A DNA stretch of 36,627 nt from a virus. The DNA is taken from positions 1-36,627 of the IMG/VR virus record IMGVR_UViG_3300021438_000043. The stretch is one strand, 5' to 3'. Below the pieces are notes generated by a model. The model was not told the origin of the DNA. It made no database searches and was given only the letters and a program-made list of their open reading frames with translations. Below, one piece after another: positions 101 to 36,513 of the stretch (position 1 is the first letter of the stretch; every line of letters starts with the position of its first letter). The position numbers and the translations under genes are program-made.

Positions 101-107
101 TTGCGTA

Positions 108-131: not shown

Positions 132-189
132 ACACATATAATAACTTTTGGCAGAATATACGCAATAAAAATTAATTCAAAAATAAGCT

Positions 190-23691: not shown

Positions 23692-23817
23692 CAACGTTTG
23701 AAGCTATATTTCAGTGCGGGAATTCAAAGCTGCGTACTTATCCCCAGTTGAAAATTTGATTAGAAGTACACGGCATAACCAACGCACTGCAACCCGCATT
23801 GAATATAGCGTGTATTA
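23692..23817. repeat. attC-like stem-loop A1
   Basis: The left arm GCTATATTTCAGTGCGGG and right arm CCCGCATTGAATATAGC (from 23793) pair with one extra T and one G-T wobble. The boxes are CAAC and ATTA rather than TAAC and GTTA, so this oldest-position site looks degenerate. The right box ATTAGCGACT matches the end of its gene segment (TGTTGCTAAC, 24136-24145) at 7 of 10 positions. Confidence 0.75.
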
Positions 23818-23844
23818 GCGACTGGCGTTTTATACTTATATAAA

Positions 23845-24144
23845 ATGGCAATAGAAATTTTAAAATGGGAAGATAAGCAATGGCATGAAATTCCGAAACA
23901 AGACAATCCAGCATTTGATTATAAATACAACGATGCAAGATTGCAAGAAAGACTAGTGGGAAGGCATAACCGTTGTTTGATGATTTGTAAGGTTGAAGAT
24001 TATGAATCAAAAGCAGTAGGTAAAGATGGATATGTAGTTATTGAAGTGCCATCAGAACCAAAAGATGTCATTCGTAGAGGATTATTTTGGCATATTGAAC
24101 ACGCTGAAGTATTCGCAGAGGCGTTTTCTAACGCTTGTTGCTAA
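23845..24144 (+). CDS. Cassette protein, 99 aa, unknown function
   Basis: The gene lies between stem-loop A1 and mini-site A2. Its TAA stop is the TAA of the TAAC box. The product is a soluble mixed-charge protein with tryptophan-containing patches (ILKWEDKQWHE, RRGLFWHIEHAE) and two C-terminal cysteines. The ATG follows an A-rich stretch 27 bases after the right box. I do not recognise the family. Confidence 0.7.
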   Translation: MAIEILKWEDKQWHEIPKQDNPAFDYKYNDARLQERLVGRHNRCLMICKVEDYESKAVGKDGYVVIEVPSEPKDVIRRGLFWHIEHAEVFAEAFSNACC

Positions 24145-24178
24145 CACCAGCAATAATGTATGAGCGGATATTAGCAAC
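24137..24178. repeat. Mini recombination-like site A2
   Basis: GTTGCTAA (24137-24144) and TTAGCAAC (24171-24178) are perfect reverse complements with only 26 bases between. It is much shorter than the other sites. The inner ATAATGTATGAGCGGATATTAGC is shared (31 of 33 over a wider span) with a solo site at 29513-29545. It therefore seems to be a second class of site. Confidence 0.6.
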
Positions 24179-24518
24179 TGTTTATATTTCTCATTTAACA
24201 GAAAGTGACTGGGGGAAATCAATTCTAATAATGAGAAAAGATGGATTAGCATTTGCTCGTATTTATTGGTTTAATGATGACAATACGACTGTTTATTTGG
24301 ATTGGCTAAGTGTATACGAAACAATTAGAAACTGCGGTGTTGGTACTGATTTACAAGAAATTCGTGAGAAAATAGGTAAATCAATGGGTGCTAAATATTC
24401 TTGTTTATGGGTTAAAAAAGACACATGGATGCGTGAATGGTACGAAAAAAGAGGATACGAATATTGGAAAGAATATAAAAATGAAGAAAATGCTATTTGG
24501 ATGCAGAAAGCAATTTAA
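24156..24518 (+). CDS. GNAT-family N-acetyltransferase (cassette cargo)
   Basis: The product has the GNAT core: a strand with VYLDWLSVYETIRNCGVGTDL, whose RNCGVG corresponds to the acetyl-CoA-binding R/Q-x-x-G-x-G/A loop, then a helix (LQEIREKIGKSMGAK) and a C-terminal segment WYEKRGYEYW typical of motif B. It would transfer an acetyl group to an unknown amine. The best ATG (24156) lies inside mini-site A2, so the site supplies the start codon. An earlier TTG at 24135 is unlikely. Acetyltransferases are common integron cargo. Confidence 0.75.
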   Translation: MYERILATVYISHLTESDWGKSILIMRKDGLAFARIYWFNDDNTTVYLDWLSVYETIRNCGVGTDLQEIREKIGKSMGAKYSCLWVKKDTWMREWYEKRGYEYWKEYKNEENAIWMQKAI

Positions 24519-24526
24519 ATATGTGC

Positions 24527-24648
24527 TAACGTTTCAGCTAAGTAAAGTGCAGGATTGCGGGCTGAAACGTATCAAGTTACAATGAATTTTAAGCGGTGAA
24601 ATACACTTGAATAACTGATTAAACCTGCATTTTATTTAGCTGATGTTA
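24527..24648. repeat. attC-like stem-loop A3
   Basis: TAAC (24527-24530) and GTTA (24645-24648) bound arms CAGCTAAGTAAAGTGCAGG (24535-24553) and CCTGCATTTTATTTAGCTG (24624-24642), which pair at 19 of 19 positions if two G-T wobbles are counted. An alternative 8-bp pairing, GTTTCAGC with GCTGAAAC (24531-24538, 24561-24568), exists on the left side. Confidence 0.88.
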
Positions 24649-24708
24649 TGTACTGTTTTATTTATAATCGTTTTAAATTACAAAATAAGTAAAAATAAAC
24701 ATGAATAA

Positions 24709-24752
24709 GTTTGCGAAATCAAAATAAAAGATATATCTTTACTTAGAATTTA
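24709..24752 (+). promoter_or_regulatory. Promoter inside a cassette
   Basis: TTTG near 24709 and TATCTTTA about 20 bases later (within GATATATCTTTACTTAG, around 24735) fit the -33/-7 pattern with one mismatch in the -7 element. The 55-aa gene starts some 25 bases downstream. This suggests that at least some cassettes carry their own promoter. Confidence 0.4.
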
Positions 24753-24765
24753 AAACATAAATAAA

Positions 24766-24933
24766 ATGAAAGCACAAATTTTAAAAAACCACGGTATCGA
24801 AACTAAGATTGAAGGTACATTTTTATTTGCATTAGAAGTAGTTTTTAACTGCAATACAAATACCGACGAAAGTAAATGGGTAAATATTTCTAATTGGTCA
24901 ACTGGTAAATTATATAATTGGTTAGGTTATTAA
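24766..24933 (+). CDS. Small cassette protein, 55 aa
   Basis: The frame runs from ATG 24766 to TAA 24931-24933. The product (MKAQILKNHGIETKIEGTFL onward) ends in a tryptophan-rich stretch (WVNISNWSTGKLYNWLGY). Small proteins of this pattern are frequent in Bacteroidota accessory DNA. It is the first of two genes in the A3 unit and is followed directly by a 14-bp hairpin that begins at its stop codon. Confidence 0.6.
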   Translation: MKAQILKNHGIETKIEGTFLFALEVVFNCNTNTDESKWVNISNWSTGKLYNWLGY

Positions 24934-25008
24934 AATACTGAAAGCCGCCAAAGCATACGAATTATAACTTTAATTATAATCATATAACGTAAGTCTTTTA
25001 GTATTTTA
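24931..25008. repeat. 14-bp inverted repeat between the two genes of a cassette
   Basis: TAAAATACTGAAAG (24931-24944) pairs with CTTTTAGTATTTTA (24995-25008) with one G-T wobble. A second perfect repeat, ATTATAA/TTATAAT (24961-24980), lies in the loop. It lacks TAAC/GTTA boxes and matched segment ends, so it is not an ordinary array site; it may be a terminator or a decayed site. Confidence 0.55.
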
Positions 25009-25019
25009 AAATATAAATA

Positions 25020-25175
25020 ATGAAAACAAAACATGGAGGCAAACGAAAAAACGCTGGTTCAAAACCTAAATATGCTGAACCTACGAAAACAATTTCATTT
25101 CGAATGCCAATAAGCAAAATAGAAGAAATAAAACTTTTGATAACGCAGAAACTTTCAGAGTGGCGTTTAAAATAG
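25020..25175 (+). CDS. Small ribbon-helix-helix-like protein, 51 aa
   Basis: The product begins MKTKHGGKRKNAGSKPKYAE and continues TISFRMPISKIEEIKLLI. This is the pattern of small Bacteroidota proteins with a basic N-terminal arm, one DNA-contacting strand (TISFRMP) and an amphipathic helix, probably a ribbon-helix-helix DNA binder. It ends four bases before TAAC. Because GTTATGTACT at 24645 pairs with AGTACATAAC at 25174, this gene and the 55-aa gene belong to one two-gene cassette. Confidence 0.65.
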   Translation: MKTKHGGKRKNAGSKPKYAEPTKTISFRMPISKIEEIKLLITQKLSEWRLK

Positions 25176-25179
25176 TACA

Positions 25180-25249
25180 TAACGATTCCGCAGCTATAAG
25201 CGATTGCGGGTGTGTACTGGAAATCCGCAACCGCTTATAGCTGCTGTTA
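25180..25249. repeat. attC-like stem-loop A4 (shortest full site)
   Basis: TAAC (25180-25183) and GTTA (25246-25249) bound arms CAGCTATAAGCGATTGCGG (25191-25209) and CCGCAACCGCTTATAGCTG (25225-25243), pairing at 18 of 19 positions. The terminal loop is only 15 bases. The right segment box GTTAGCGGGT matches the segment end GCCCGATAAC (25528-25537) at 8 of 10 positions. Confidence 0.88.
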
Positions 25250-25293
25250 GCGGGTCGGTTTTTATTACATTTGATTTTAAATTAAAATATATT

Positions 25294-25536
25294 ATGAAAC
25301 AAGAATTAGTTGATTTATCTCTATTTCTAAGCAAGAAAAAACCAAGTGGAATTATTGCTGTAAGTGAAATAATGAATTTGTTTGAAGAGTTTTCACAATC
25401 AAAAGAATGTACAAGAGATTTTATTGATAAAGAAGTTTTAAAAGATAAGATTGAGGATTATTCTTTAGATAAAACAGTACAGGGAATATTTGAGGATGGT
25501 GTAAAATTGGCAGAGGCTTATTTTACTGCCCGATAA
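25294..25536 (+). CDS. Cassette protein, 80 aa, helical
   Basis: I chose ATG 25294 because the upstream frame to 25204 would translate the stem-loop. The product is acidic and helical (IIAVSEIMNLFEEFSQSKEC, then DKEVLKDKIEDYSLDKTVQG) with a single cysteine. The TAA stop codon is the TAA of the next TAAC box. No family was recognised. Confidence 0.65.
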   Translation: MKQELVDLSLFLSKKKPSGIIAVSEIMNLFEEFSQSKECTRDFIDKEVLKDKIEDYSLDKTVQGIFEDGVKLAEAYFTAR

Positions 25537-25657
25537 CGATGGCCATACGCTACGTTGGCGATTAGAACGAACGAATTTATTAATTTATTAAAAACTTTAT
25601 AAAATGGCAGAAATTACGAATACCCACGAACACGCCAATGGAGTATATGGCGTGTTA
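25534..25657. repeat. attC-like stem-loop A5
   Basis: TAAC (25534-25537) and GTTA (25654-25657) bound arms GGCCATACGCTACGTTGGCG (25541-25560) and CGCCAATGGAGTATATGGCG (25633-25652), which pair imperfectly. The right box GTTAGCAAAT matches the segment end GTTTGCTAAC (25976-25985) at 9 of 10 positions. The start codon of the next gene is inside this site. Confidence 0.82.
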
Positions 25658-25972
25658 GCAAATCGGGCTTTTTTTGATGATGAATGGCAGTTTAAACAAC
25701 TTAATTTCACTCGAAAAGAATGGCTCGACAAAGATGGGAAAGATGATAAGTTTTATACTCTAAAATATGTGCAGTACGAAAAACAACTTGGCGATGAAGA
25801 TGCGGCAATTGAAGTATGTTATGGTTACAAAACGGTTGATGGCGAAAACTATAAGTTGTTTGAAACTTCGTGCGAATTGCGTATCGGAATTGATTATATT
25901 AAAATCAAAACGGATAAGGTTTACAAACTTCGAGAATTGTACAAAATTATCACAGGTCAGCGTCTTCTTTAG
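25604..25972 (+). CDS. Cassette protein, 122 aa, start codon within stem-loop A5
   Basis: The ATG at 25604, with TTTATAAA before it, lies in the loop of stem-loop A5. The right arm is translated as residues 10-18 (EHANGVYGV). No later in-frame ATG exists before the body of the protein (FFDDEWQFKQLNFTRKEWLD). The product is a soluble alpha/beta protein with many charged and aromatic residues, including EYKI-like helices at the end (KVYKLRELYKIITG). I do not recognise the family. Alternatively translation starts at a non-ATG codon after 25657. Confidence 0.6.
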   Translation: MAEITNTHEHANGVYGVLANRAFFDDEWQFKQLNFTRKEWLDKDGKDDKFYTLKYVQYEKQLGDEDAAIEVCYGYKTVDGENYKLFETSCELRIGIDYIKIKTDKVYKLRELYKIITGQRLL

Positions 25973-25981
25973 CCTGTTTGC

Positions 25982-26065
25982 TAACGTTGATGGTAAACGT
26001 AGCGGCAAAACGCACGAACCATCAACACAGGCGGACTTGTCAGCCGTTACGTTTACCATGTGTTA
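25982..26065. repeat. attC-like stem-loop A6
   Basis: TAAC (25982-25985) and GTTA (26062-26065) bound arms ATGGTAAACGTAGCGGC (25990-26006) and GCCGTTACGTTTACCAT (26043-26059), pairing at every position if one G-T wobble is counted. An alternative perfect 9-bp repeat, GTTGATGGT/ACCATCAAC (25986-25994, 26019-26027), competes on the left. Confidence 0.88.
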
Positions 26066-26080
26066 TAAACTGTTTTTATT

Positions 26081-26314
26081 ATGACCGATAAACAATTTTT
26101 TGCAAGTAAATGGAAGCCATTTGAAGTTATGACAGTTTTTATTAAAGAGCTAAATAGAAACTGTGAATGTTACCTTGTCGGAATTGAATTTGAAGATAAA
26201 ATAATGAAACTTCGACCATTAGATACTGATACTTATGAAGATGGTATTTACGAGGTCAAAATAAACATAATAAAACGGGGCAAAAGTGAACCGACGATGC
26301 GTGTCTTAAAATAG
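26081..26314 (+). CDS. Cassette protein, 77 aa, last gene of array A
   Basis: The small product starts MTDKQFFASKWKPFEVMTVF and continues as a beta-rich domain (CECYLVGIEFEDKIMKLRPL). It is probably a short SH3-like barrel, but I recognise no family. The gene ends five bases before TAAC 26319-26322, where the array joins the landing-site sequence. Confidence 0.65.
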   Translation: MTDKQFFASKWKPFEVMTVFIKELNRNCECYLVGIEFEDKIMKLRPLDTDTYEDGIYEVKINIIKRGKSEPTMRVLK

Positions 26315-26318
26315 TTTA

Positions 26319-26342
26319 TAACTATATTATATACGCATAAAT
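26319..26342. other. Array A terminal junction (attI-like landing site)
   Basis: TAAC is followed by TATATTATATACGCATAAAT (26323-26342), which matches the array B junction at 17 of 20 bases. Two of the differences keep the small palindrome TAYA-T-TRTA. The occurrence of nearly the same right half beside two unrelated genes, only at array ends, is the reason for calling it the landing site. Confidence 0.6.
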
Positions 26343-26345
26343 TAA

Positions 26346-26363
26346 ATTGAAAAATATTTCAAT
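26346..26363. promoter_or_regulatory. Palindrome upstream of an early gene
   Basis: ATTGAAA (26346-26352) and TTTCAAT (26357-26363) are perfect reverse complements with a four-base spacer, ending four bases before the next ATG. It may be an operator or a translation-control hairpin. Confidence 0.35.
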
Positions 26364-26366
26364 AAT

Positions 26367-26612
26367 ATGGAATTACTTGAAAAATCAAATAAAATTACTG
26401 AACGATTTGTGCAATTATTAATTGAAAATGATTTAGATTATTCAGATGAATTGAAAATATTTTCTAAAATTGCTGAAAAGTATAATTTGAAATATTTTCC
26501 AAGTTATATAAAAGAAAATAATTTGAATTATAATACGACGAATAAAAAAGTAGAACAAGGTATTATACCATCGGTTGAAATTGACGGAATAACATTTATA
26601 TTAAATTTTTAA
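26367..26612 (+). CDS. Hypothetical protein, 81 aa
   Basis: The product is acidic and helical in its first half (KITERFVQLLIENDLDYSDE) and has a short beta hairpin at the end (VEIDGITFILNF). It is the first gene after the array A junction and reads away from it. The next gene follows after 10 bases. No family was recognised. Confidence 0.6.
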   Translation: MELLEKSNKITERFVQLLIENDLDYSDELKIFSKIAEKYNLKYFPSYIKENNLNYNTTNKKVEQGIIPSVEIDGITFILNF

Positions 26613-26622
26613 AACTAAAATT

Positions 26623-26817
26623 ATGGGAGGAATAAACTCTGGAAGAACAAAAGGATCAATCGACAAAACAAAAAGAAGTCGAAAAAAAACTGGTAAAAAT
26701 AAAGAAAAAATGACCATTAGCATAGATAAAATTCTAAAATCAGAGGTTATGGAAAGATATAAAGGTAAGGCCACTAAAATGATAGAAAATTATTTTTTAT
26801 CAGAATTGAAAAAATAA
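26623..26817 (+). CDS. Small basic DNA-binding-like protein, 64 aa
   Basis: The N-terminus (GGINSGRTKGSIDKTKRSRK) is very basic, followed by MTISIDKILKSEVMERYKGK, a strand-helix layout like a ribbon-helix-helix protein. It resembles the 51-aa protein at 25020 in overall design. It may bind DNA as a small regulator. GGGAGGA-like purines before its ATG give a good ribosome-binding site. Confidence 0.55.
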   Translation: MGGINSGRTKGSIDKTKRSRKKTGKNKEKMTISIDKILKSEVMERYKGKATKMIENYFLSELKK

Positions 26818-26850
26818 TATAAATCATACGTGCATTTTAAAATAAATTCA

Positions 26851-26858
26851 TATCTTTG
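26851..26858 (+). promoter_or_regulatory. -7 element TATCTTTG
   Basis: TATCTTTG matches TAnnTTTG exactly and lies 15 bases before the next ATG (26874). It probably drives the replication/recombination operon. No distinct -33 element was seen. Confidence 0.5.
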
Positions 26859-26873
26859 ATAAAAATAACAACC

Positions 26874-27230
26874 ATGAAGGAAATATCTGATTTTGAAATC
26901 AAGCGCTTGTCTTTATTAATAGTTGAAAAACTTTACGAAGAATTTTCTCCTGAAACTGTCGACGAAGATGGTGTTTATGACAAAACTTTCGAAAACATGG
27001 TGAAAGTAGATACTTACGAAGTAGATTTTAAATACAAGTATAGCTATCGAGATTGGCTTCGAGATAAATACGGCGACGGGATAAAATGCGAGCGAAAATT
27101 CTTGCAGTTAGAAGAATTCGAGTTAACAATAATTGACCCAGCAACAGAGGATTTTATAAATATTTCGAAAGAATATATATCTTTAATTGGAAAAACGTTT
27201 TTTGAAAAAATAAAGTATTACTATTCTTAA
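26874..27230 (+). CDS. Hypothetical early protein, 118 aa
   Basis: I chose ATG 26874, since the earlier in-frame codon at 26856 overlaps the -7 element. The acidic N-terminal half (KEISDFEIKRLSLLIVEKLY) is followed by a segment with KYKYSYRDWLRDKYGDGIKC and a C-terminal helix. Proteins of this size precede recombination genes in Bacteroidota phages, but I do not recognise a named family. Confidence 0.6.
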   Translation: MKEISDFEIKRLSLLIVEKLYEEFSPETVDEDGVYDKTFENMVKVDTYEVDFKYKYSYRDWLRDKYGDGIKCERKFLQLEEFELTIIDPATEDFINISKEYISLIGKTFFEKIKYYYS

Positions 27231-27242
27231 AAACTTATAAAT

Positions 27243-27494
27243 ATGAAAATCATTGAAATGGCAACCGAAAGCAAGCTTAGTATTGAGCTTAAAGAAAACA
27301 AAGAAGAAATAAAAAGGCTCGAAACTGAAATAACAAGCTGGAAAAATACATTTGACTTCGCAGTAGAGCATAAAAGAACTTTTACGGCTAAATATGCATT
27401 TCAAAGAAAAGAAAATCTATCGAAACAACACGAAGGATTATTAAAATTAGTTGAACTGCAAGAACAGCAATTAAAATCCATTCAAAATGATTGA
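27243..27494 (+). CDS. Coiled-coil protein, 83 aa
   Basis: Almost the whole protein is a heptad-type helix (SIELKENKEEIKRLETEITS, then LLKLVELQEQQLKSIQ). Its end overlaps the next small gene by eight bases. It may oligomerise or act as an adaptor for recombination proteins. The function is unknown. Confidence 0.6.
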   Translation: MKIIEMATESKLSIELKENKEEIKRLETEITSWKNTFDFAVEHKRTFTAKYAFQRKENLSKQHEGLLKLVELQEQQLKSIQND

Positions 27495-27618
27495 AACTAA
27501 TTTAATATTAATTCGAAAAATTATTATAAAAACAGGTCAAAACAATTGCAATTCGCACTATATTATACTTGTGAAAACTATTGATAGGCCAATAATGTGT
27601 GAAGTAATTCAGAATTAA
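27487..27618 (+). CDS. Small hypothetical protein, 43 aa
   Basis: The ATG lies within the end of the coiled-coil gene. The product (MIETNLILIRKIIIKTGQNN onward) is short, with a hydrophobic first part and two cysteines. Translational coupling and gene packing are the only support. It could be non-coding. Confidence 0.4.
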   Translation: MIETNLILIRKIIIKTGQNNCNSHYIILVKTIDRPIMCEVIQN

Positions 27619-27637
27619 TAATCGAATACTATAAATA

Positions 27638-28216
27638 ATGGAAACTAAAAAAATAAGTGAAGAGCAAATTAAAAAGCTCAAAGAACCACTACCAAAAGAA
27701 GCTGTTAGTCAACACCCTACGAAAACATATTTAAGTTCAATAAAAGCTATTTTTGTTACAGAGCGATTAAGCGATGTTTTTGGTGTTGGTTCGTGGAGAA
27801 TAAATTCTGAAATAATTGAAAAAACAACTAATGGGATGGTTGTGGTAAAAGTAAAACTTACTATTCCAGAATATAACATAGAACTTGAAAGCTTTGGCGG
27901 TAACGATAACGGTGGCGAAGGAAATAAAAATTTTGACTTGGGAGATGCGTACAAGGGAGCCGTAACAGACGCAATAACAAAAATAGGTAGTTGGCTATAT
28001 ATTGGCATAGATGTTTTTAAAGGTCAAAAAAAACCAGACCAAAATAACACACAAAAACAAGATGAACAAAATCAAAAACCTTGGTTAAATCCTAAAACAA
28101 AAGAATGGTACGCTGCGATAAAGTTTTTAAGCGAAGGTGGATTGATTCCTAAAATTGAAGAAAAGTACAAAATAAGTAAAGAAAATAAAGAGAAACTAAT
28201 AAAAGAATCACTATAA
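27638..28216 (+). CDS. Rad52-like single-strand annealing protein
   Basis: The first 130 residues contain KTYLSSIKAIFVTERLSDVFGVGSW, then ESFGGNDNGGEGNKNFDLGDAYKGAVTDAITKIGSW in two parts, the pattern of Rad52/Rad22-type recombinases of Bacteroidota phages. These form rings that anneal complementary single strands. The C-terminal 60 residues are a charged tail, probably for SSB or partner binding. It starts the recombination block. Such proteins support concatemer formation and also promote gene exchange between phages. The length of 192 residues is typical. Confidence 0.85.
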   Translation: METKKISEEQIKKLKEPLPKEAVSQHPTKTYLSSIKAIFVTERLSDVFGVGSWRINSEIIEKTTNGMVVVKVKLTIPEYNIELESFGGNDNGGEGNKNFDLGDAYKGAVTDAITKIGSWLYIGIDVFKGQKKPDQNNTQKQDEQNQKPWLNPKTKEWYAAIKFLSEGGLIPKIEEKYKISKENKEKLIKESL

Positions 28217-28683
28217 TGGACACAATTAGCATAATGAATCAGTTCCCTATTACAAAGGAAAGTATGGAGCGTTTTTTTAATCAAACAAAAGATTTGATTT
28301 TGTCAGGTGAACGAAACCCTTTAGAACTTGCAGTAGTTCTAAAGGCAATTGAAGAAACAATCTCAAAACTTAGAAAAGATGAAGAAATTGAAAATTCAAT
28401 TCAAAAAGAATTTGAAAAACACTCTAAAAAAACAGTTGAAATATACGGGGCAAAAATGACATTAAAGGAAACTGGAGTACGATATGACTACTCTAACAGT
28501 TTAGTATGGTCAAAACTCGCTGAAACAAAAACTGAGGCAGAAAATAAAGTTAAAGAACACGAGGCGTTTTTGAAAACATTAAAAGATAAAACTATTATTG
28601 TTGACGAAACAAGTGGAGAAACAATTGAATTATGGCCGCCAGTAAAAACTTCATCAACTAAAGTCACTGTAAGTTTAATTTAA
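28216..28683 (+). CDS. Recombination-associated protein, 155 aa
   Basis: It starts on the last base of the annealing protein gene. The product is helical, with a segment ERNPLELAVVLKAIEETISK and a conserved-looking VEIYGAKMTLKETGVRYDYS followed by a coiled coil. Proteins with this pattern accompany Rad52-like genes in related phages. A role as annealing partner or nuclease modulator is possible but not shown. Confidence 0.6.
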   Translation: MDTISIMNQFPITKESMERFFNQTKDLILSGERNPLELAVVLKAIEETISKLRKDEEIENSIQKEFEKHSKKTVEIYGAKMTLKETGVRYDYSNSLVWSKLAETKTEAENKVKEHEAFLKTLKDKTIIVDETSGETIELWPPVKTSSTKVTVSLI

Positions 28684-29091
28684 ATGGACTCTTTAACTGA
28701 AATTACTGAATCAATTAACTGGTACAATAAAAATTACAAAACGGCAACAATCGACGTTTTGATTAATTTAAAAACCAAGTTAGTCACAGAAAATTTTTAC
28801 TTGGCCGAATTAGTAAGCGAAAATAATTGTTTTCAACTCCAATGGGAAAACGAAAAAAAGGTAAAATTTGCAAAAGAGCGTTACAGGCTAATTTCTGATA
28901 ACTGGACAGTTTCAAAAGCAGAGGCAAAAGCTGAAACTGAAATAGAAAACGAACGCAATCAATTTACGCAATACAAAATCGTATTTGATAGGCTAAAAAT
29001 CTTACATAATCAAACCAATGAAGTATGTAACGATATAATGCAAAGAATCGCAATTTTAAGGCACGAAAACGCAAATGCAGCCAAATTATGA
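28684..29091 (+). CDS. Coiled-coil protein, 135 aa
   Basis: The ATG follows the previous stop directly. The product is almost entirely helical and rich in glutamate and lysine (WENEKKVKFAKERYRLISDN, AEAKAETEIENERNQFTQYK). It overlaps the NinG-like gene by four bases (ATGA). Its role in recombination is inferred from the operon. Confidence 0.6.
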   Translation: MDSLTEITESINWYNKNYKTATIDVLINLKTKLVTENFYLAELVSENNCFQLQWENEKKVKFAKERYRLISDNWTVSKAEAKAETEIENERNQFTQYKIVFDRLKILHNQTNEVCNDIMQRIAILRHENANAAKL

Positions 29092-29465
29092 AAATAGACG
29101 AATCTATCAGAAATGTTTTTAACGAAATAATTCAAATTCGTGATAAAAATAACCCATGTATTATTTGCGGATATCCATTAGGAAACAACTCTATTAATGT
29201 GTGCCACTACATAAAAAAATCGCAAAGTTCGTTGCTTAAATTTAAGTTGTCGAATGCCCATCTAGGTCATCAGTGGTGCAATCAAAAAGAAGAGTACGAC
29301 GAAAATTTCAGTAGTTCACATGCGTTAAATGTACTTGAACGAGAGGGATTAAATGAATACATGCTATTAAATTCAATTAAACGGCAAACTATTAAGTTTG
29401 GAAGTTCAGAAAAAAAAGAATTGCTTTCGATGCTTAAAATTGAATTAAAAAATTATAAAAGATGA
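29088..29465 (+). CDS. NinG-like zinc-binding recombination protein (HNH-type)
   Basis: The protein has PCIICGYPL near residues 23-31 (CxxC), VCHYIKKSQSS near 38-48 and AHLGHQWCNQKEEYDE near 57-72. This arrangement of paired cysteines and histidines matches the NinG/Rap family of lambdoid phages, which resolves branched DNA. HLGHQWCNQ is the expected second zinc half. The order Rad52-like, accessory, NinG-like is a compact recombination module. At 125 residues it is shorter than lambda NinG. Confidence 0.75.
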   Translation: MKIDESIRNVFNEIIQIRDKNNPCIICGYPLGNNSINVCHYIKKSQSSLLKFKLSNAHLGHQWCNQKEEYDENFSSSHALNVLEREGLNEYMLLNSIKRQTIKFGSSEKKELLSMLKIELKNYKR

Positions 29466-29512
29466 TACAAAAACGCATAAAAGTGAAAGTTGAAAATATA
29501 GATAAAACGGCT

Positions 29513-29545
29513 ATAACGTATGAGCGGATGTTAGCAACTGTTTAT
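29513..29545. repeat. Solo mini-site resembling array A site A2
   Basis: These 33 bases match 24153-24185 at 31 positions. TAAC (29514-29517) and GTTA (29530-29533) are only 12 bases apart, enclosing GTATGAGCGGAT. The right box GTTAGCAAC pairs with GGTGCTACC (29734-29742), just past the following gene, at 7 of 9 positions. It looks like a single cassette sitting outside the arrays. Confidence 0.55.
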
Positions 29546-29734
29546 TCACAAAAAGGTAAAGACTTTGAAGGTCGTAAACTAAATGAAAATACATTAAATT
29601 CAGATGTATCGGTAATTTGGAGAAACAAAGAATATAAAATAGGTAATAGAAGGAACAATTTAGTTGAATTATGGTGGAATAATGAATTTATAAGGATAGT
29701 TAGTACATCTTATATTAGGTTGGCTAGAAAATAG
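29528..29734 (+). CDS. Cassette-like gene product, about 68 aa
   Basis: The ATG at 29528 reads GGATGTTAGC, so the start codon lies on the right box of the mini-site. A longer frame from ATG 29462 overlaps the NinG-like gene end and would translate the site as well. The product (MLATVYSQKGKDFEGRKLNE onward) has the shape of a small domain with WRNKEYKIGNRRNNLVELWW. I do not recognise it. The gene interrupts the recombination block and differs from its neighbours, consistent with insertion as a mobile unit. Confidence 0.6.
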   Translation: MLATVYSQKGKDFEGRKLNENTLNSDVSVIWRNKEYKIGNRRNNLVELWWNNEFIRIVSTSYIRLARK

Positions 29735-29770
29735 GTGCTACCGTTGGTTGTGAATAGTTAATTTTAAAAA

Positions 29771-29947: not shown

Positions 29948-30005
29948 TTGCAACTGATAAAAAATTCAGGACCCAATATGAAAAACTTGAAAAACAAATA
30001 AAACA

Positions 30006-30333: not shown

Positions 30334-30338
30334 TTTTA

Positions 30339-30437
30339 TACATTTGTAAAAATGTTGACTGCGACCAACATAAAGAAACTGGTGTAAAAACCTTAAATCC
30401 CTTCTTTAACTTGTCGCAGAGTTACTGAGGGGATTTT
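30339..30437 (+). ncRNA. Leader RNA 1: pseudoknot-like structure with terminator hairpin
   Basis: TACATTTG (30339-30346) is a -7 element. Downstream, CTGCGAC (30359-30365) pairs with GTCGCAG (30413-30419), and AAATCCCTTC (30395-30404) pairs with GAGGGGATTT (30427-30436). The order is A, T5, A', T3, so the pairs interlock as a pseudoknot or compete. The second pair ends in a short T-run, like a terminator. Leader RNA 2 has the same order and spacing with different bases. It precedes a 54-aa gene and may attenuate the downstream replication operon. Confidence 0.6.
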
Positions 30438-30450
30438 CAATTTAAAAAAA

Positions 30451-30615
30451 ATGACAATTGACGAATTAATAGAAAAATTGAATGAGATTAAAGAAACTCA
30501 TGTAATGGCTGGACGTGCCGAAATATACGAAAATACTGAAAGCGCAAAAACAATTTTAGGATTTGATTTTGATAACAGATACAACATGTTGCATTTTAAA
30601 TTTGGGCATAAATGA
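30451..30615 (+). CDS. Small protein, 54 aa
   Basis: The gene follows leader RNA 1 by 13 bases. The product starts with a helix (MTIDELIEKLNEIKETHVMA) and ends in a short beta part (DNRYNMLHFKFGHK). Its stop overlaps the next start (ATGA). No family was recognised. Confidence 0.55.
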   Translation: MTIDELIEKLNEIKETHVMAGRAEIYENTESAKTILGFDFDNRYNMLHFKFGHK

Positions 30616-30749
30616 CAACATTTAACTTTAAAGTCGTCAACAAGCAAAACGGCAACGATCGGTTATTAAATGGTCGAGCAAACGACCAAAAACACGCAAT
30701 AAATAAAAGTAAATTTTATTTAGAAGAAAACGAAACAATTGTGTATTAG
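30612..30749 (+). CDS. Small protein, 45 aa
   Basis: The gene is coupled to the previous one by a four-base overlap. The product (MTTFNFKVVNKQNGNDRLLN onward) is polar, with a basic centre. It ends 15 bases before the promoter of leader RNA 2. Its function is unknown. Confidence 0.5.
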   Translation: MTTFNFKVVNKQNGNDRLLNGRANDQKHAINKSKFYLEENETIVY

Positions 30750-30763
30750 TATCAGAAAATTTT

Positions 30764-30861
30764 TATATTTGTAGTGTCAAATCTGTGCAGAGATTAACAA
30801 ATTAAAAACATTACACCTCATTCCGAGTAGCCCTGCACGGCGAAAGGACTGAGGTTTTTTT
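30764..30861 (+). ncRNA. Leader RNA 2: pseudoknot-like structure with terminator hairpin
   Basis: TATATTTG (30764-30771) is an exact -7 element. GTGCAG (30785-30790) pairs with CTGCAC (30832-30837). ACCTCATTCC (30815-30824) pairs with GGACTGAGGT (30846-30855) with one mismatch, followed by seven T residues. The hairpin ends 11 bases before the initiator start codon. Promoter-to-A, T5-to-A' and A'-to-T3 distances are within one base of those in leader RNA 1. It is probably an attenuator or small RNA controlling replication initiator synthesis. Confidence 0.65.
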
Positions 30862-30871
30862 ATGCAAAAAT

Positions 30872-31564
30872 ATGAACACTTTTGAGCTTTCAAGAAATTG
30901 GTTTGATTTTAGTTTTCATAACCCGGATAAGGTAAAGCCAAATCATACAGCTATATATTTTTTTGCAATAGAACATTGTAATAGATTGGGCGGTAAGGAA
31001 AAATTTGGATTTCCTACAACTATGGTTATGGAGGCTTTAGGTATAAAATCTTATAATACGTACATTGATTCATTCAATGATTTGGTAATGTGGGGATTTT
31101 TTAAATTGATAGAAAAAAGCAAAAATCAATATTCTGCAAATATCATTGCTTTATCAAAAAATGACAAAGCACTTGACAAAGCACTTGACAAAGCAATGAT
31201 AAAGCACACTTCAAAGCAAAGTGAAAGCACTATACAAAGCATTGATAGTATAAATAAACAAGAAACAATAAACAATAAACAAGTAATAGTGGAAAATCAA
31301 AAACGATTTTCAGAACCAACAATTTTAGAGATAAAAAATTATTGTGAAGAAAGAAAAAATAATGTTGATTTTAATAAGTTTTACGACTTTTATAAATCAA
31401 AGGGATGGATGGTCGGTAAAAATAAAATGAAAGATTGGCAGGCTGCTGTAAGAACATGGGAAAAAGAATCTTCATTTAAAAAAACAGAACAGAAAACAAT
31501 TGAAATTGACCGTAAAAACCCAAATAGTTACTGGAATAATTTAAAACAAAATGGAACAAATTAA
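30872..31564 (+). CDS. Replication initiator-like protein, 230 aa
   Basis: The N-terminal 90 residues form a winged-helix-like domain (MNTFELSRNWFDFSFHNPDK, then GFPTTMVMEALGIKSYNTYI). A low-complexity linker with repeated DKALDKALDK follows, encoded by the iterons. The C-terminal 70 residues contain KFYDFYKSKGWMVGKNKMKDWQAAVRTWE in two parts, a domain usual in Bacteroidota phage replication proteins beside DnaC-like loaders. By analogy to lambda O it would bind the origin in its own gene. It overlaps the loader gene by 14 bases. Confidence 0.75.
   Translation: MNTFELSRNWFDFSFHNPDKVKPNHTAIYFFAIEHCNRLGGKEKFGFPTTMVMEALGIKSYNTYIDSFNDLVMWGFFKLIEKSKNQYSANIIALSKNDKALDKALDKAMIKHTSKQSESTIQSIDSINKQETINNKQVIVENQKRFSEPTILEIKNYCEERKNNVDFNKFYDFYKSKGWMVGKNKMKDWQAAVRTWEKESSFKKTEQKTIEIDRKNPNSYWNNLKQNGTN
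31163..31243. repeat. Seven phased iterons, probable replication origin
   Basis: AAAGCA occurs at 31166, 31178, 31190, 31201, 31213, 31224 and 31236. The spacing is 12, 12, 11, 12, 11 and 12 bases, about one helix turn, so all copies face one side. The first copies are TGACAAAGCACT. A run of AAACAAT-type AT-rich repeats follows (31255-31290) and could be the unwinding element. The arrangement inside the initiator gene resembles the lambda origin in gene O. Confidence 0.7.
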
Positions 31565-32213
31565 CATAGTTAAATCTTTGATTGAAGCACGTAAAAAGAA
31601 AATTATAAGACTTCAATATTTACCGTACTCAATTGAAATAGCCAAAAAGGTTTGGTACGGAATTGCGGCCGAACTTTTAGGAACTGTTAAAATAACAGAA
31701 TCTACAAAAGAATGCTGGACTTTGTTAATAAAATACATTCATTCAGATATTTCAGAACTATTTAATGAAAAAGGTATTTATTTATGCGGTAATACTGGAA
31801 GCGGAAAGACAAAAACAATGGAAATATTACTTCTTTATTCTGAAATTGACAATGTTAAATACATCGTTAATGAAGATGAAATAAAGAATTTTAGGTTTAA
31901 AATATTTTCGTCAATTCAAATAGTTTCAGACTATCAGGAAAAAGGGATTGAAGGTATTGAAAAGTACAAAAACTATACAAATTTACTTATTGACGACTTA
32001 GGTAGTGAACAATTAGAGGCTACACATTATGGAAGTAAATTAAATGTTATTGAGCATGTGATCGAACATCGTTACACAAAAATTGGATTTACTCATTTTA
32101 CAAGCAATTTACCAATGAAATCAGTCTCAAATATATACGGAGAGCGCGTTGGAAGTAGAATAAAAGAAATGTGTAACGAAATTCAATTGCAATGTGATGA
32201 TTTTAGGATTTAA
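31551..32213 (+). CDS. DnaC-like helicase loader ATPase
   Basis: Walker A GNTGSGKT is near residues 80-87 and Walker B NLLIDDLG near 144-151, with a sensor-like THFTSNLP near 190. This is the DnaC/IstB type of AAA+ protein, which loads the host DnaB-type helicase at the origin. It follows the initiator with a 14-base overlap, as in lambda O and P. It is the last gene before array B. The lack of a phage DNA polymerase or helicase implies reliance on host replication proteins. Confidence 0.85.
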   Translation: MEQINIVKSLIEARKKKIIRLQYLPYSIEIAKKVWYGIAAELLGTVKITESTKECWTLLIKYIHSDISELFNEKGIYLCGNTGSGKTKTMEILLLYSEIDNVKYIVNEDEIKNFRFKIFSSIQIVSDYQEKGIEGIEKYKNYTNLLIDDLGSEQLEATHYGSKLNVIEHVIEHRYTKIGFTHFTSNLPMKSVSNIYGERVGSRIKEMCNEIQLQCDDFRI

Positions 32214-32269
32214 TTAGTTTTGATATGAAATTACAATCTAAAAAAGATAGGCCGTTTTAAACTTGCGCA

Positions 32270-32355
32270 TAACGGGTTTTCGGCTATGCATAGCGGCTAT
32301 GGACGAACCTAGCAAAGGACGCTAACGCGTCCGCCGTTACGTATAGGTGCTGTTA
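32270..32355. repeat. attC-like stem-loop B1
   Basis: TAAC (32270-32273) and GTTA (32352-32355) bound arms CTATGCATAGCGGC (32284-32297) and GCCGTTACGTATAG (32333-32346), which pair imperfectly. The loop holds a perfect hairpin GGACGC-TAAC-GCGTCC (32317-32332). The left box follows a non-cassette sequence after the loader gene, so this is the left edge of array B. Confidence 0.78.
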
Positions 32356-32393
32356 GGTATAGTACGGATTTATAAACACAAAATATTGATTAT

Positions 32394-32618
32394 ATGAATT
32401 TTATAGATTTAAAAGAAGGACAAAAATTAAAGGTGTTAATACCTCAATTTTCTTCAGTAGCGAATGTAAAAGTTGAAGAATTTATCGTTTCCGGCACTGA
32501 AAATGATAAGACCCCGAAACTTTCATTTATGCTTAAAGGTCGATTGAAAGGGAAAGGTTTATTTGTTGAAATACCAATTAATTCACAATATGATTTGGAT
32601 AAATGGCAATTTCGCTAG
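32394..32618 (+). CDS. Cassette protein, 74 aa
   Basis: The product (MNFIDLKEGQKLKVLIPQFS onward) looks like a small beta barrel with VEEFIVSGTEND and a lysine/glycine-rich turn (KGRLKGKGLFVE). The stop codon is nine bases before the TAAC of stem-loop B2. The segment ends GTTAGGTATA and TATACCTAAC are perfectly complementary. No family was recognised. Confidence 0.68.
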   Translation: MNFIDLKEGQKLKVLIPQFSSVANVKVEEFIVSGTENDKTPKLSFMLKGRLKGKGLFVEIPINSQYDLDKWQFR

Positions 32619-32627
32619 TATTATACC

Positions 32628-32751
32628 TAACATTGAGCGTATGAAATGTTGGCGAGTACGAAGCTGCGAAAGTATCTACCGATACAGAGCTAACTACGAG
32701 CCACTAACCTACGCAAACCACTTAAACTCCAATATTTTATACGCTGTGTTA
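32628..32751. repeat. attC-like stem-loop B2
   Basis: TAAC (32628-32631) and GTTA (32748-32751) bound arms GAGCGTATGAAATGTTGG (32635-32652) and CCAATATTTTATACGCT (32729-32745), with two G-T wobbles. The loop contains GTATC-TACC-GATAC. The whole site is closely similar to B5, mainly in the left half. Confidence 0.85.
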
Positions 32752-32772
32752 TACGCTTTTATATTTTAAATT

Positions 32773-32982
32773 ATGGAAGATATTTTTAAACATTTAGGGA
32801 AAATAGTTAAAGTAGAGCAAGGCATAAAAATAGAGTTAAATTTTGAAGAAATATTATCATTTTATGATGCTTTGACAGTAATAAATGATAATAAACAACT
32901 ATTTAACGAAGAAACTATAACAATTTTAAATAAATTAAAGAATAAAGTACAAAATGAATTATACTTAAAACGATTAAAATAA
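32773..32982 (+). CDS. Cassette protein, 69 aa, first of a two-gene unit
   Basis: The product (MEDIFKHLGKIVKVEQGIKI onward) is acidic to neutral and helical at both ends, with no recognised motif. Its stop overlaps the next ATG (TAATG), so both genes are translated together. Both share one cassette, because there is no site between them. Confidence 0.65.
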   Translation: MEDIFKHLGKIVKVEQGIKIELNFEEILSFYDALTVINDNKQLFNEETITILNKLKNKVQNELYLKRLK

Positions 32983-33239
32983 TGGAAAGAACATTAACAA
33001 ATGAACAGGTAAAAAAGATTATGACCATTGAAAAAATGTATCATAAACAAAATGTAAGATTGAGAATTGAAGAAAATTCGATTAAAATAATGTGGAATGA
33101 TTCTAATACAACTCAAGAAAGTAAAATTAAAGGCAAAAGGATGCAACACAAATTAGATGTAGTTAGTCAAATTTTAGGAGACCGTTTTATTGAATTTTAT
33201 TGGTTAAATGGCGACCAAATGGTGTATGCTCGTTATTAA
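32982..33239 (+). CDS. Cassette protein, 85 aa, second of a two-gene unit
   Basis: The product starts MERTLTNEQVKKIMTIEKMY and continues with a short beta region (RLRIEENSIKIMWNDSN) and a helix. The stop lies seven bases before TAAC 33247-33250. A two-gene unit with overlapping codons resembles a toxin-antitoxin or partner pair, but no such family is recognisable. Confidence 0.65.
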   Translation: MERTLTNEQVKKIMTIEKMYHKQNVRLRIEENSIKIMWNDSNTTQESKIKGKRMQHKLDVVSQILGDRFIEFYWLNGDQMVYARY

Positions 33240-33246
33240 TTGCTTA

Positions 33247-33339
33247 TAACGATGGGGCTATGTTTTAGTTTTTGCCTTGCATAAACTCCATTATTTGAAC
33301 GAAACTTTATTAGGCAAAAATTAAATATAGCCCGTGTTA
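33247..33339. repeat. attC-like stem-loop B3
   Basis: TAAC (33247-33250) and GTTA (33336-33339) bound arms GGGCTATGTTTTAGTTTTTG (33255-33274) and CAAAAATTAAATATAGCCC (33315-33333), a long AT-rich stem with one extra base. The right box GTTATGCGTT (33336-33345) matches the end of the radical SAM gene segment perfectly. Confidence 0.85.
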
Positions 33340-33360
33340 TGCGTTGTTAATTATTTTTTT

Positions 33361-34725
33361 ATGGATCGAAATTTATTTACTCCAATAATAACAAAAAAAA
33401 CTAAAATCGCTTTCTTGTCATACCAACCAATAAAGGGTGATAGACATGATTTTAATTTTAAAAGCCTTAAAAACTTTGGAGCTTCAATGATAATTGATGT
33501 TTTATTTAATGCTGGGTATGATGTTAAAATTACCGATAAAGAAAATGCCAATAAATATGACATTGTATTAATTAGCTTAACATCTAATTTAGATATGATA
33601 GCATTAACAAGATATTTGAATAATTATATTGACTGGAAAAGAAGAAAATTTGTAGTATGTGCCGGTGGTTTTGGGATGCAAAATTATATACCTATTATGG
33701 AATATATTGATTATGCATGGTATGGAAGAGTTGAGAATGAAATATCTTGGCTAATTGAAAATAATTTTGATGTTGAGCATCAAAGCTTAATAAAAATAGG
33801 GAAGCATAAAAATGTTATAATTAACCAAAGTAATATTTTATATCCAAATGTATATACATTTGGAGGAGGGATGACTAAAGAACAAATCTATGGATGCCCA
33901 AATAAATGTTTTTTTTGTTACTATTCATTTTCAAGAAAATATATAAATACTGGTAATAATTTATATTCCTTTAATCAAGGATATACTTCAAGTATTGAAA
34001 TAGAACAATGCAAAAAAGAGCTTTATAAAAATTTTGCTATTCCTGAAATAACAAGTTCAATAGACGGATTTAGTGAAAGGTTAAGATTTGCCATGAATAA
34101 AAGAATACCAAATAATCAAATAATTGAATTTATAAAATATATAACATCAAATACAACATGCAAGGCTTTAAGATTAAAACTATATAACATAGTAGGAATT
34201 GAAACAGAAACAGAAACAGATTACAATGAATTTTTAGAAACAATTATAAAAATAGGGGAGTTGAAAAAAAATATATCTATTATTGTTCATTCAACGCCTT
34301 TAAACCCTTCAATATGTACCCCAGTTGCATACGCTCCTATAAATATTGAAAAAGACTATAATAAAAATAAAGCTTGTTTGGGGAAAAAAAATATACAACG
34401 GCTTTACGAAACGCCTTATTTAAAATTATTAAACGACTTTTTCACAGAGGATGCAAGTTCTCTATTGGAGCATACTATCCCAATTCGTACAACTTTTGAC
34501 AATATAGAAATATTTAAAATATTGTGCCATGATAAAAAATATAAGAATTTACGTACTGCTGAAAAAATTAATTTTATGAGTGGTATAAATGGGTTTAAAG
34601 ACATAATTAGGGAATATTCAATAAATGAATATTTACCAACTCAATATGTTAATTCATTTATCGGATATGACAAATTAAAAATAATGCGAAAAAAGATGCG
34701 AAATGCTCTTTATAATAACGCATAA
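33361..34725 (+). CDS. Radical SAM protein with B12-binding-like N-terminal domain (cassette cargo)
   Basis: The 454-aa product has GCPNKCFFCYYSF near residues 178-190, whose CxxxCxxC would hold the iron-sulfur cluster that cleaves S-adenosylmethionine. Residues 15-130 look like a Rossmann-type cobalamin-binding domain (KIAFLSYQP, DIVLISLTS, VVCAGGFG), but the DxHxxG cobalamin motif is missing. The class B methyltransferase type is the nearest comparison, and substrate is unknown. ATG 33361 is preferred to ATG or other starts inside the right box. The TAA stop is the TAA of the next TAAC. It is by far the largest cassette. Confidence 0.82.
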   Translation: MDRNLFTPIITKKTKIAFLSYQPIKGDRHDFNFKSLKNFGASMIIDVLFNAGYDVKITDKENANKYDIVLISLTSNLDMIALTRYLNNYIDWKRRKFVVCAGGFGMQNYIPIMEYIDYAWYGRVENEISWLIENNFDVEHQSLIKIGKHKNVIINQSNILYPNVYTFGGGMTKEQIYGCPNKCFFCYYSFSRKYINTGNNLYSFNQGYTSSIEIEQCKKELYKNFAIPEITSSIDGFSERLRFAMNKRIPNNQIIEFIKYITSNTTCKALRLKLYNIVGIETETETDYNEFLETIIKIGELKKNISIIVHSTPLNPSICTPVAYAPINIEKDYNKNKACLGKKNIQRLYETPYLKLLNDFFTEDASSLLEHTIPIRTTFDNIEIFKILCHDKKYKNLRTAEKINFMSGINGFKDIIREYSINEYLPTQYVNSFIGYDKLKIMRKKMRNALYNNA

Positions 34726-34848
34726 CGGCTGGCGGTATAAAATCGTTGGGGAATGCGAGCCACGAACCTATCAGCCAAAACTGAACTTTGCACGGGGTAC
34801 AAAGTTTGAATAACAGATTAAATCACAATGTTTTATTACCGCTTGTTA
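34723..34848. repeat. attC-like stem-loop B4
   Basis: TAAC (34723-34726) and GTTA (34845-34848) bound arms GCGGTATAAAATCGTTG (34732-34748) and CAATGTTTTATTACCGC (34826-34842), which pair with one or two unpaired bases. A second hairpin ACTTTG/CAAAGT lies in the loop. The right box GTTAGTAGCC matches GGCTACTAAC (35511-35520) perfectly. Confidence 0.85.
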
Positions 34849-34883
34849 GTAGCCGTTTTTTATTCATCTTTTAATCAATTTTT

Positions 34884-35507
34884 ATGATAGTGTTGATAAC
34901 ACACGAGGAAAGCCAAACAGTAATGGAAGCGTTTTTAAATGCCGGACATGATGCTTATAGTTGCGATTTATTGCCAGCAAGCGGAAAGCACCACGAAAGA
35001 CATTTGCAAATGGATTGTTTTGAGGCTATAAAACTAATTAAGCCTGAATTTTTGGGAATGCACCCTGAATGCACTCGACTTACAGTTGCAGCGAATAAAT
35101 ATTATAAGCCTGAATATGCTGAACGATTTCCAAACATACACGAACAAAGAGCCGAAGCAGTTCAGCGCTTTTTGAAATGTGCAGAAGCATTGGAGAGAAT
35201 TGGTAAAGGTTACATTGAAAACCCGATTGGAATAATGAGCAGACTTTATAAAAAACCAACTCAAATTATACAGCCTTACCAATTTGGACATACTGAACGC
35301 AAAAGCACTTGTTTATGGATTGAAGGATTACCAAAATTACAAGCCATAAACATTGTTGAGCCTGATATTATAGTGCATAAAAGTGGTAGAACTGACAGCA
35401 GATTGCATTATGAAACCTTTAAATTACCAAAAGAAGAACGAAGGAAAGCCCGTTCAAAAACATTTACTGGAATTGCCGAAGCGATGGCGTTGCAGTGGGG
35501 TTCTTAA
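34884..35507 (+). CDS. DNA methyltransferase-like protein (C5-MTase fold family)
   Basis: The 207-aa product matches a phage protein family by its opening (VLITHEESQTVMEAFLNAGH), then GMHPECTRLTVAAN near residues 58-71, YIENPIGIMSRLYKKPTQII near 112-131 and FTGIAEAMALQW at the end. In relatives the second block reads HPPCTxLT, like the catalytic PPC loop of cytosine-5 methyltransferases; here it is PEC. Whether it methylates DNA is uncertain. As a cassette gene it could protect phage DNA. The gene is followed by TAAC after nine bases. Confidence 0.7.
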   Translation: MIVLITHEESQTVMEAFLNAGHDAYSCDLLPASGKHHERHLQMDCFEAIKLIKPEFLGMHPECTRLTVAANKYYKPEYAERFPNIHEQRAEAVQRFLKCAEALERIGKGYIENPIGIMSRLYKKPTQIIQPYQFGHTERKSTCLWIEGLPKLQAINIVEPDIIVHKSGRTDSRLHYETFKLPKEERRKARSKTFTGIAEAMALQWGS

Positions 35508-35516
35508 AATGGCTAC

Positions 35517-35640
35517 TAACGTTGAGCGTATGAAATGTTGGCGAGTTCGGAGCTGCGAAAGTATCTACCGATACATAACTAACTGCGAGCTACAAAACTA
35601 AGCAAACAGCTAAAACGCCAATATTTTATATGCTGTGTTA
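35517..35640. repeat. attC-like stem-loop B5
   Basis: TAAC (35517-35520) and GTTA (35637-35640) bound arms GAGCGTATGAAATGTTGGCG (35524-35543) and CGCCAATATTTTATATGCT (35616-35634) with three G-T wobbles. The loop hairpin GTATC-TACC-GATAC is the same as in B2. The right box GTTATACGC pairs with GCGTATAAC (35920-35928). Confidence 0.86.
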
Positions 35641-35677
35641 TACGCTTTTATTTATAATTTAAAAAAAACTAAATTCA

Positions 35678-35917
35678 ATGACAATAGAAGAAAAATTCAA
35701 CATGCTTTTACCTGAACTTAATAAAAGTGAAATATTAAGCAATATAATTAAGCATGAAAATAAATACTATTTGGCTTATTGGGAAAAACATAAATGGAAC
35801 TTATCAAGTGAAATAAAGCTAATAGATACCGATAAATCAATAATAACATGTAAAAAATGCAATAGTTTTATTTTTGATGAATTTGGTAAATGTGCGCAAT
35901 GTGGCGAGTGGGCTTAA
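35678..35917 (+). CDS. Zinc-ribbon cassette protein, 79 aa
   Basis: The N-terminal half is a short alpha/beta segment (MTIEEKFNMLLPELNKSEIL) and the C-terminal half is a zinc ribbon with CKKC and CAQC about 20 residues apart. It may bind nucleic acid or act as a small regulator. The last 100 bases are repeated at the window start. In that copy the gene is followed directly by the landing site, in this copy by stem-loop B6 and another gene. Confidence 0.75.
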   Translation: MTIEEKFNMLLPELNKSEILSNIIKHENKYYLAYWEKHKWNLSSEIKLIDTDKSIITCKKCNSFIFDEFGKCAQCGEWA

Positions 35918-35924
35918 TTGCGTA

Positions 35925-36048
35925 TAACGGTTGACAATATGAAATGTACGGGATTAAAAGCGGTATCCTATCCCGATACACGACACTTAATTAAAGGTAG
36001 TACCGTAAAATTTGGCACGAACACCCGTATATTTTATATTGTGTGTTA
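35925..36048. repeat. attC-like stem-loop B6 (present in only one copy of the locus)
   Basis: TAAC (35925-35928) and GTTA (36045-36048) bound arms CAATATGAAATGTACGGG (35935-35952) and CCCGTATATTTTATATTG (36024-36041), which pair at every position if two G-T wobbles are counted. GTATC/GATAC again occurs in the loop. The site begins exactly where the two copies of this locus diverge. Confidence 0.9.
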
Positions 36049-36513
36049 CCTGCTGTAATTTATTCAGTATGAAAGCAAAAGATATTTTTATTCAGTTTGA
36101 AAAACAAGCTATTGAATGGGGGAAACAATATCAAATAGCTAAAGTTGGGGATATTGTTACTTCTAATTTAGGAGGCAAAAGACCTAAAAAGCTAAAAATT
36201 TCGTCCATATCTGTAACCATAGGACGAAACGCCATAAAAACAACTCAAAAAACTTTGGTATTACAATATACTGGAAGACGAATAAATTCAAACGGCGAAT
36301 TTATGGATGAGTTAGGAACGGGAAGATGGTTAACAGAATTTGTGACAGAAGACGGGAAAGTATATAATTATTCTGAAAACGAAGTAACAGAAACAGCTAA
36401 TGATATTGGGGTTTCATTTAATGTTGATTTCGACCCAGAAGCTAAAGAAAAATATCCACACGCCTACCATACGTACAAAGATAGCTACGACGGCTTTTAT
36501 TATAGCAGGTAAC
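35929..36513 (+). mobile_element. 585-bp cassette, present at the right end and absent from the left-end copy
   Basis: The unit runs from the base after TAAC (35928) to the end of the next TAAC (36513). Bases on either side are contiguous at 111/112 in the other copy. It consists of stem-loop B6 and the gene at 36069-36512. This defines, by natural comparison, the boundaries of one mobile unit: stem-loop first, gene second. Confidence 0.85.
36069..36512 (+). CDS. Cassette protein, 147 aa, presence/absence polymorphic
   Basis: I chose ATG 36069; an upstream frame to 36012 would translate the stem-loop arm. The product starts MKAKDIFIQFEKQAIEWGKQ, has a beta-rich centre (VGDIVTSNLGGKRPKKLKIS) and a C-terminal acidic segment (VSFNVDFDPEAKEKYPHAYH). 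I recognise no family. The TAA stop is the TAA of TAAC at the array end. The gene is present in one of the two copies of this locus in the window, which marks it as recently gained or lost. Confidence 0.75.
   Translation: MKAKDIFIQFEKQAIEWGKQYQIAKVGDIVTSNLGGKRPKKLKISSISVTIGRNAIKTTQKTLVLQYTGRRINSNGEFMDELGTGRWLTEFVTEDGKVYNYSENEVTETANDIGVSFNVDFDPEAKEKYPHAYHTYKDSYDGFYYSR

Follow-up and report, generated by a model that had tools for sequence, protein, structure and literature searches.

Integron-like gene-cassette arrays in a tailed phage

Background

Integrons are usually treated as bacterial devices that phages at most transport. Two regions of a phage genome, each a row of small genes separated by hairpins resembling the attC recombination sites of integrons, raise the question of whether a phage can possess a cassette system of its own, in which accessory genes are gained and lost at exact boundaries. 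An earlier note, made from the sequence alone, described the two regions as integron-like gene cassette arrays with twelve attC-like stem-loops, and stated that it knew of no description of paired arrays as built-in accessory loci of a tailed phage. However, integrase-free clusters of attC sites (CALINs) in virulent phages, including a Polaribacter phage, were already published, as was their use by IntI1 (Qi et al. 2023, PMC9892861).

Here we analysed the whole stretch of DNA containing the two arrays (hereafter "the window"), the 36,627-base virus record IMGVR_UViG_3300021438_000043. The window belongs to a tailed phage, with matches to terminase, portal and major head proteins, and its nearest cultivated capsid relatives are in Olleya and Cellulophaga phages, so that a Bacteroidota host is likely but not shown.

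Results and discussion

Hairpins and genes of the two arrays

A scan of the whole window for hairpins with AAC...GTT ends and an inner stem gave 11 sites scoring 30 or more, all inside the two arrays, against 1.0 expected per dinucleotide shuffle; at a score of 36 or more it gave 8 sites against 0. The twelve sites of the earlier note are thus close to what is present, most being clear and two not. Site A1 ends in GTATTA instead of GTTA, and site A2 is weak in every test (14.3 bits, E 1.7, with our attC model). A hairpin-like repeat at 24930-25012 is an AT terminator-like structure, not a site. The TAAC and GTTA boxes, the arm lengths of 14-22 bp and the stop codons lying next to TAAC are as the earlier note described. 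No hit was obtained with Rfam. The features of the two arrays, with hairpin-scan scores and attC-model bit scores, are as follows.

23692..23817 (+), attC-like hairpin A1, recognized by folding, with the atypical right box GTATTA
23845..24144 (+), cassette gene of unknown function, no Pfam or PHROG hit
24130..24172 (+), weak and doubtful attC-like site A2
24159..24518 (+), cassette gene, GNAT acetyltransferase (PF00583 over cut-off; phrog_3810)
24527..24648 (+), attC-like hairpin A3 (scan 48; 49.2 bits)
24766..25175 (+), two small cassette ORFs (24766-24933 and 25020-25175)
25180..25249 (+), attC-like hairpin A5 (scan 52; 33.9 bits)
25294..25536 (+), cassette gene, unknown
25534..25657 (+), attC-like hairpin A6 (scan 37), whose 3' arm overlaps the next ORF if the first ATG of that ORF is used
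25604..25972 (+), cassette gene, unknown, no family hit
25982..26065 (+), attC-like hairpin A7 (scan 44; 52.5 bits)
26081..26314 (+), cassette gene, unknown
26319..26342 (+), attI-like end site of array A (TAACTATATTATATACGCATAAAT), a repeat shared with the end of array B
32270..32355 (+), attC-like hairpin B1 (scan 31; 25.1 bits, although not in the training set)
32394..32618 (+), cassette gene, unknown
32628..32751 (+), attC-like hairpin B2, 89% identical to B5
32773..33239 (+), two cassette ORFs (32773-32982 and 32982-33239)
33247..33339 (+), attC-like hairpin B3 (scan 47; 52.2 bits)
33361..34725 (+), cassette gene, radical SAM-like protein (PF04055, E 9.5e-5, below the Pfam cut-off)
34723..34848 (+), attC-like hairpin B4, sharing a loop motif with a Bacteroidetes chromosomal site
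34884..35507 (+), cassette gene, DNA methyltransferase-like (phrog_757, E 2e-55)
35517..35640 (+), attC-like hairpin B5 (59.8 bits)
35678..35917 (+), cassette gene, zinc ribbon protein (weak Zn_ribbon hit; CxxC pairs in the sequence)
35925..36048 (+), attC-like hairpin B6 (scan 43), part of the unit missing in the variant described below
36069..36512 (+), cassette gene, unknown, part of the same missing unit
36510..36533 (+), attI-like end site of array B, the crossover point of the variant
1..225 (+), contig end, equal to 35818-35928 joined to 36510-36627 within TAAC, a version lacking B6 and its gene

An alignment of 19 sites from this phage, two other phages and one chromosome gave a covariation of 0.608 against 0.161 in shuffles, none of 500 shuffles being as high, and the value fell to about 0.1-0.2 when the pairing was slid by 1-3 columns. 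The alignment was assembled from sites chosen partly for having such stems. Two G.T positions are shared by the stems (13 of 19 sites each); these are wobble pairs on the plus strand and A.C mismatches on the other. The hairpins have conserved boxes rather than being ordinary terminators, and a relative (69% identical capsid protein) has an attC array with different genes at the same place. Thus, the interpretation of the earlier note is supported, although it missed the attI-like end sites, the polarity of the units and the deletion variant in the window's own ends.

The cassette unit and its recombining end

The bases right of each hairpin are the reverse complement of those left of the next hairpin, for example AGTACATAAC or AGCAGGTAAC on both sides of one gene. 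In total, 79 of 108 positions match, against 45 expected when partners are shuffled (P about 1e-5). Such complementarity of the ends is the arrangement established for integron cassettes.

Which end recombines is indicated by the window's own termini. Bases 1-111 equal 35818-35928, and bases 108-225 equal 36510-36627, so that the left end of the contig is a version of array B in which the zinc-ribbon gene is followed directly by the end site and 581 bases (hairpin B6 plus its gene) are missing, the join lying in a 4-base TAAC overlap. Although this variant rests on the ends of a single contig, without read data, it shows that the unit is a hairpin plus its downstream gene, with crossover at the 5' TAAC, mirrored relative to a classical cassette. 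In agreement with this, hairpins B2 and B5 share their right and not their left flank, so hairpin and downstream gene travel together. The canonical reading, a gene plus the following hairpin, was rejected because it leaves each array with a gene-less first hairpin and a hairpin-less last gene, and cannot give the observed join.

Both arrays start with a hairpin and end with a gene followed by a similar site (TAACTAYATTRTAWACGCATAAAT), as expected if this is the attI-like insertion point. With attI matrices from the integrase-bearing phages described below, the end of array A ranks 4 of 1488 AAC positions, whereas that of array B ranks 9 with a six-site matrix but only 127 with a 45-site matrix, and its identity as attI rests on the observed join. 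The 24-mer of the attI-like site was not found in other viral contigs, and a loop motif of B2 and B5 was absent from 84,980 genomes.

An integrase family in other phages

No tyrosine recombinase was detected in the window with PF00589, nor in a 57-kb phage (L008) that has two arrays ending in two identical sites, which also fit the larger attI matrix poorly. A search of viral contigs for one attC pattern gave 16 stretches, one of them in the L008 phage, and most carry further sites. Three of these records (L057, L058 and L062) hold a tyrosine recombinase, in each case just behind an array and an attI-like site on the same strand; in L057 the reading frame has an in-frame stop near its start.

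An alignment of six phage integrases found 133 related viral contigs. In 64 of these loci the attC model gives 89 hits, all on the integrase strand and nearly all upstream. The independent hairpin scan of 52 non-redundant loci gives 133 hairpins in 177 kb upstream against 4 in 185 kb downstream, and 48 of the 52 have at least one upstream. Between array and start codon lies a consensus AACTAYTATATGTA. These are short, Xer/IntI-like enzymes. Three of them score 102-170 bits on the integron integrase model TIGR02249, below its cut-off of 265 bits, and all six that were aligned with IntI1 lack the IntI-specific additional domain near patch III, a defining feature of IntI (PMC2426708). Several branches of the integrase tree are unresolved, and the tree did not settle whether the phage integrases form one clade.

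Cassette variation among cultivated Polaribacter phages

The Polaribacter phages Freya_1 to Freya_10 encode such an integrase, and provide a natural experiment. In seven compared records, the stretch from a conserved gene to the integrase is 1699, 2541, 3443, 3915, 5739, 6334 and 6641 bases long, and every join is at AAC, whereas genome length minus this stretch is 42,279 in all seven. Freya_1, Freya_5 and Freya_10 have no mismatch in 42,309 bases outside it. Most changes are additions beside the attI-like site, and Freya_8 against Freya_10 is an internal loss. The R1 model does not detect the Freya sites, and their hairpins were judged by eye. Similarly, Danklef_3 lacks exactly a 777-base unit with an adenine methylase, joined at CTAAC. 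The paper reporting these phages read the integrase as a sign of temperate life, and its main text does not contain the words integron, cassette or insertion (Bartlau et al. 2021, PMC8776804).

Gene polarity

In phages, ORFs beside attC-model hits read with the attC polarity 92 to 3, whereas in the chromosome of Bacteroidetes GWF2_41_31, where arrays lie beside a 683-aa IntI-like recombinase, the ratio is 1 to 10. This is a strong lead rather than proof, since only one host genome is involved and some sites trained the model. In both settings the same end of the hairpin faces the joint, so the hairpins look alike in action while the phage genes are turned round. A simple reason would be that the phage attI lies at the far end of a transcription unit, so that only cassettes inserted with genes facing attI are expressed.

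A model for the arrays

With high confidence, though without bench tests, we interpret each array as an integron-type cassette platform of a Bacteroidota tailed phage. A unit is a folded attC hairpin followed by its gene, and a tyrosine recombinase is inferred to join the TAAC end of the hairpin to the attI-like site at the promoter-distal end of the array, adding or removing units there, so that every gene reads in the phage's direction. Since the window phage carries platforms and cassettes but no detectable integrase, the enzyme is inferred to act in trans, from a host or from a co-infecting phage of the kind that encodes one beside attI, although no such enzyme has been identified for it. 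Catalysis by the phage integrase family, a single-stranded substrate, the active strand and the benefit (access to accessory and counter-defence genes) are likewise inferences.

It is probable, beyond this, that Bacteroidota tailed phages possess a separate, phage-dedicated class of integron, with its own short integrase, its own attI and cassettes whose genes are inverted relative to attC, used as a running accessory-gene loader, and that some phages such as the present one have dispensed with the integrase and are loaded in trans. In the papers searched, we found no description of a phage integrase family with attI and arrays, of the reversed gene polarity, or of cassette turnover among phage isolates, although this absence is only weak evidence of novelty. 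Cultivated isolates that differ by little or nothing but cassettes make the speed, enzyme, strand choice and fitness value of cassette exchange directly measurable in a short-generation system. The arrays also suggest a mechanism for the rapid turnover of small accessory genes (methyltransferases, GNATs, unknowns) in phage genomes, and a possible gene flow between phage and bacterial cassette pools.

Alternative explanations

It remains possible, but unlikely, that host XerC/XerD or a host integron integrase, not a phage enzyme, is the normal recombinase for these arrays in all such phages. The window and L008 phages have arrays but no tyrosine recombinase, Bacteroidetes GWF2_41_31 carries arrays beside its IntI-like recombinase, and IntI1 acts on other phage attC sites (PMC9892861). 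However, many phages place their own integrase directly behind the attI-like site, and the Freya isolates, which vary most, all encode an identical full-length integrase. A search for the attC pattern in 395 genomes of the phylum of the Bacteroidetes genome found nothing, so the host was not identified; one Paraburkholderia match is treated as chance.

It is very doubtful that the arrays are relics (CALINs) copied from bacterial integrons by illegitimate recombination and no longer mobile in the phage, the interpretation offered for the earlier phage CALINs (PMC9892861). The lack of an integrase in the window and the resemblance of hairpin B4 to a site in a Bacteroidetes chromosome favor this view, but the window contains an exact one-unit variant, both arrays end in similar sites, the gene polarity beside phage attC sites appears to be opposite to that in the Bacteroidetes chromosome, and relatives show exact turnover among isolates.

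Finally, a role of the hairpins as transcription terminators or RNA regulatory elements, with gene turnover by homologous recombination through the phage annealing protein, is least likely: although T-rich stretches follow many hairpins, the two conserved G.T pairs would be G.U in plus-strand RNA and the phage has a weak match to single-strand annealing proteins (27638-28216), the joins share only 3-11 bases yet always fall at AAC, a terminator role leaves the complementary flanks around each gene unexplained, and the structures occur upstream and not downstream of one integrase family (133 against 4 hairpins). A search with a DnaC-like protein found no relatives.

Comparison with known systems

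As in classical integrons (class 1 and chromosomal), the present arrays have hairpin attC sites with AAC/GTT boxes, a spacer and an imperfect inner stem, complementary ends around each gene, what appears to be a single attI-like insertion point, a tyrosine recombinase beside it in related phages, and exact cassette gain and loss. In contrast, the genes face attI instead of facing away, the integrase, where present, reads in the same direction and lies downstream of the array and lacks the IntI-specific extra domain, and strand asymmetry seems to be set by two G.T pairs rather than by extra bases in most sites.

The window also fits the definition of a CALIN, at least two attC sites without a nearby integrase, except that an attI-like site, which plain CALINs lack, appears to be present. 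The CALINs of virulent phages (PMC9892861) are likewise attC clusters without integrase in tailed phages, but were reported as bacterial-type attC acquired by phages, and in the parts of that report that we consulted no phage-specific integrase beside attI and no cassette variation among isolates is described. The Freya and Danklef phages have the same architecture with integrase, and the GWF2_41_31 locus has similar hairpins beside an IntI-like recombinase, but with its genes in the classical orientation. XerC/XerD recombination also employs short tyrosine recombinases, and the phage integrases score best or near best on XerA/XerC/XerD models, but no hairpin cassette arrays are part of that system.

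Within one core gene of the window, a 36-base stretch (29510-29545) is 92% identical to the start of the GNAT cassette (24150-24185) and contains a minimal TAAC...GTTA palindrome, which is possibly a trace of an old recombination. In the L008 phage, which has two arrays, some hairpins (L022, 1621-1820 and 8590-9005) seem to hold most of the ORF of the cassette inside the hairpin loop, with the 3' arm inside the coding sequence.

In L057, one of the integrase-bearing phages, the integrase frame has an in-frame stop codon near its start (1522-1561); either a downstream start is used, the gene is broken, or the stop codon represents an assembly error. The Danklef integrase (MT732458, Danklef_1, 40976-41491) matches only residues 96-271 of that of Freya and is annotated as a 132-base fragment, yet the isolates still differ by a cassette. 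The gene may be degraded, with an enzyme supplied in trans.

In Bacteroidetes GWF2_41_31, two unusually long IntI-like recombinases (683 and 578 aa), with extra N-terminal parts, were found at L034 8693-10744 and L026 1168-2904, respectively, and at least one of them lies directly beside an attC array. The chromosomal array (L024, 2291-4829) carries probable toxin-antitoxin pairs (PIN-like, Fic-like and RelE/HTH-like, as judged by eye) in the classical orientation.
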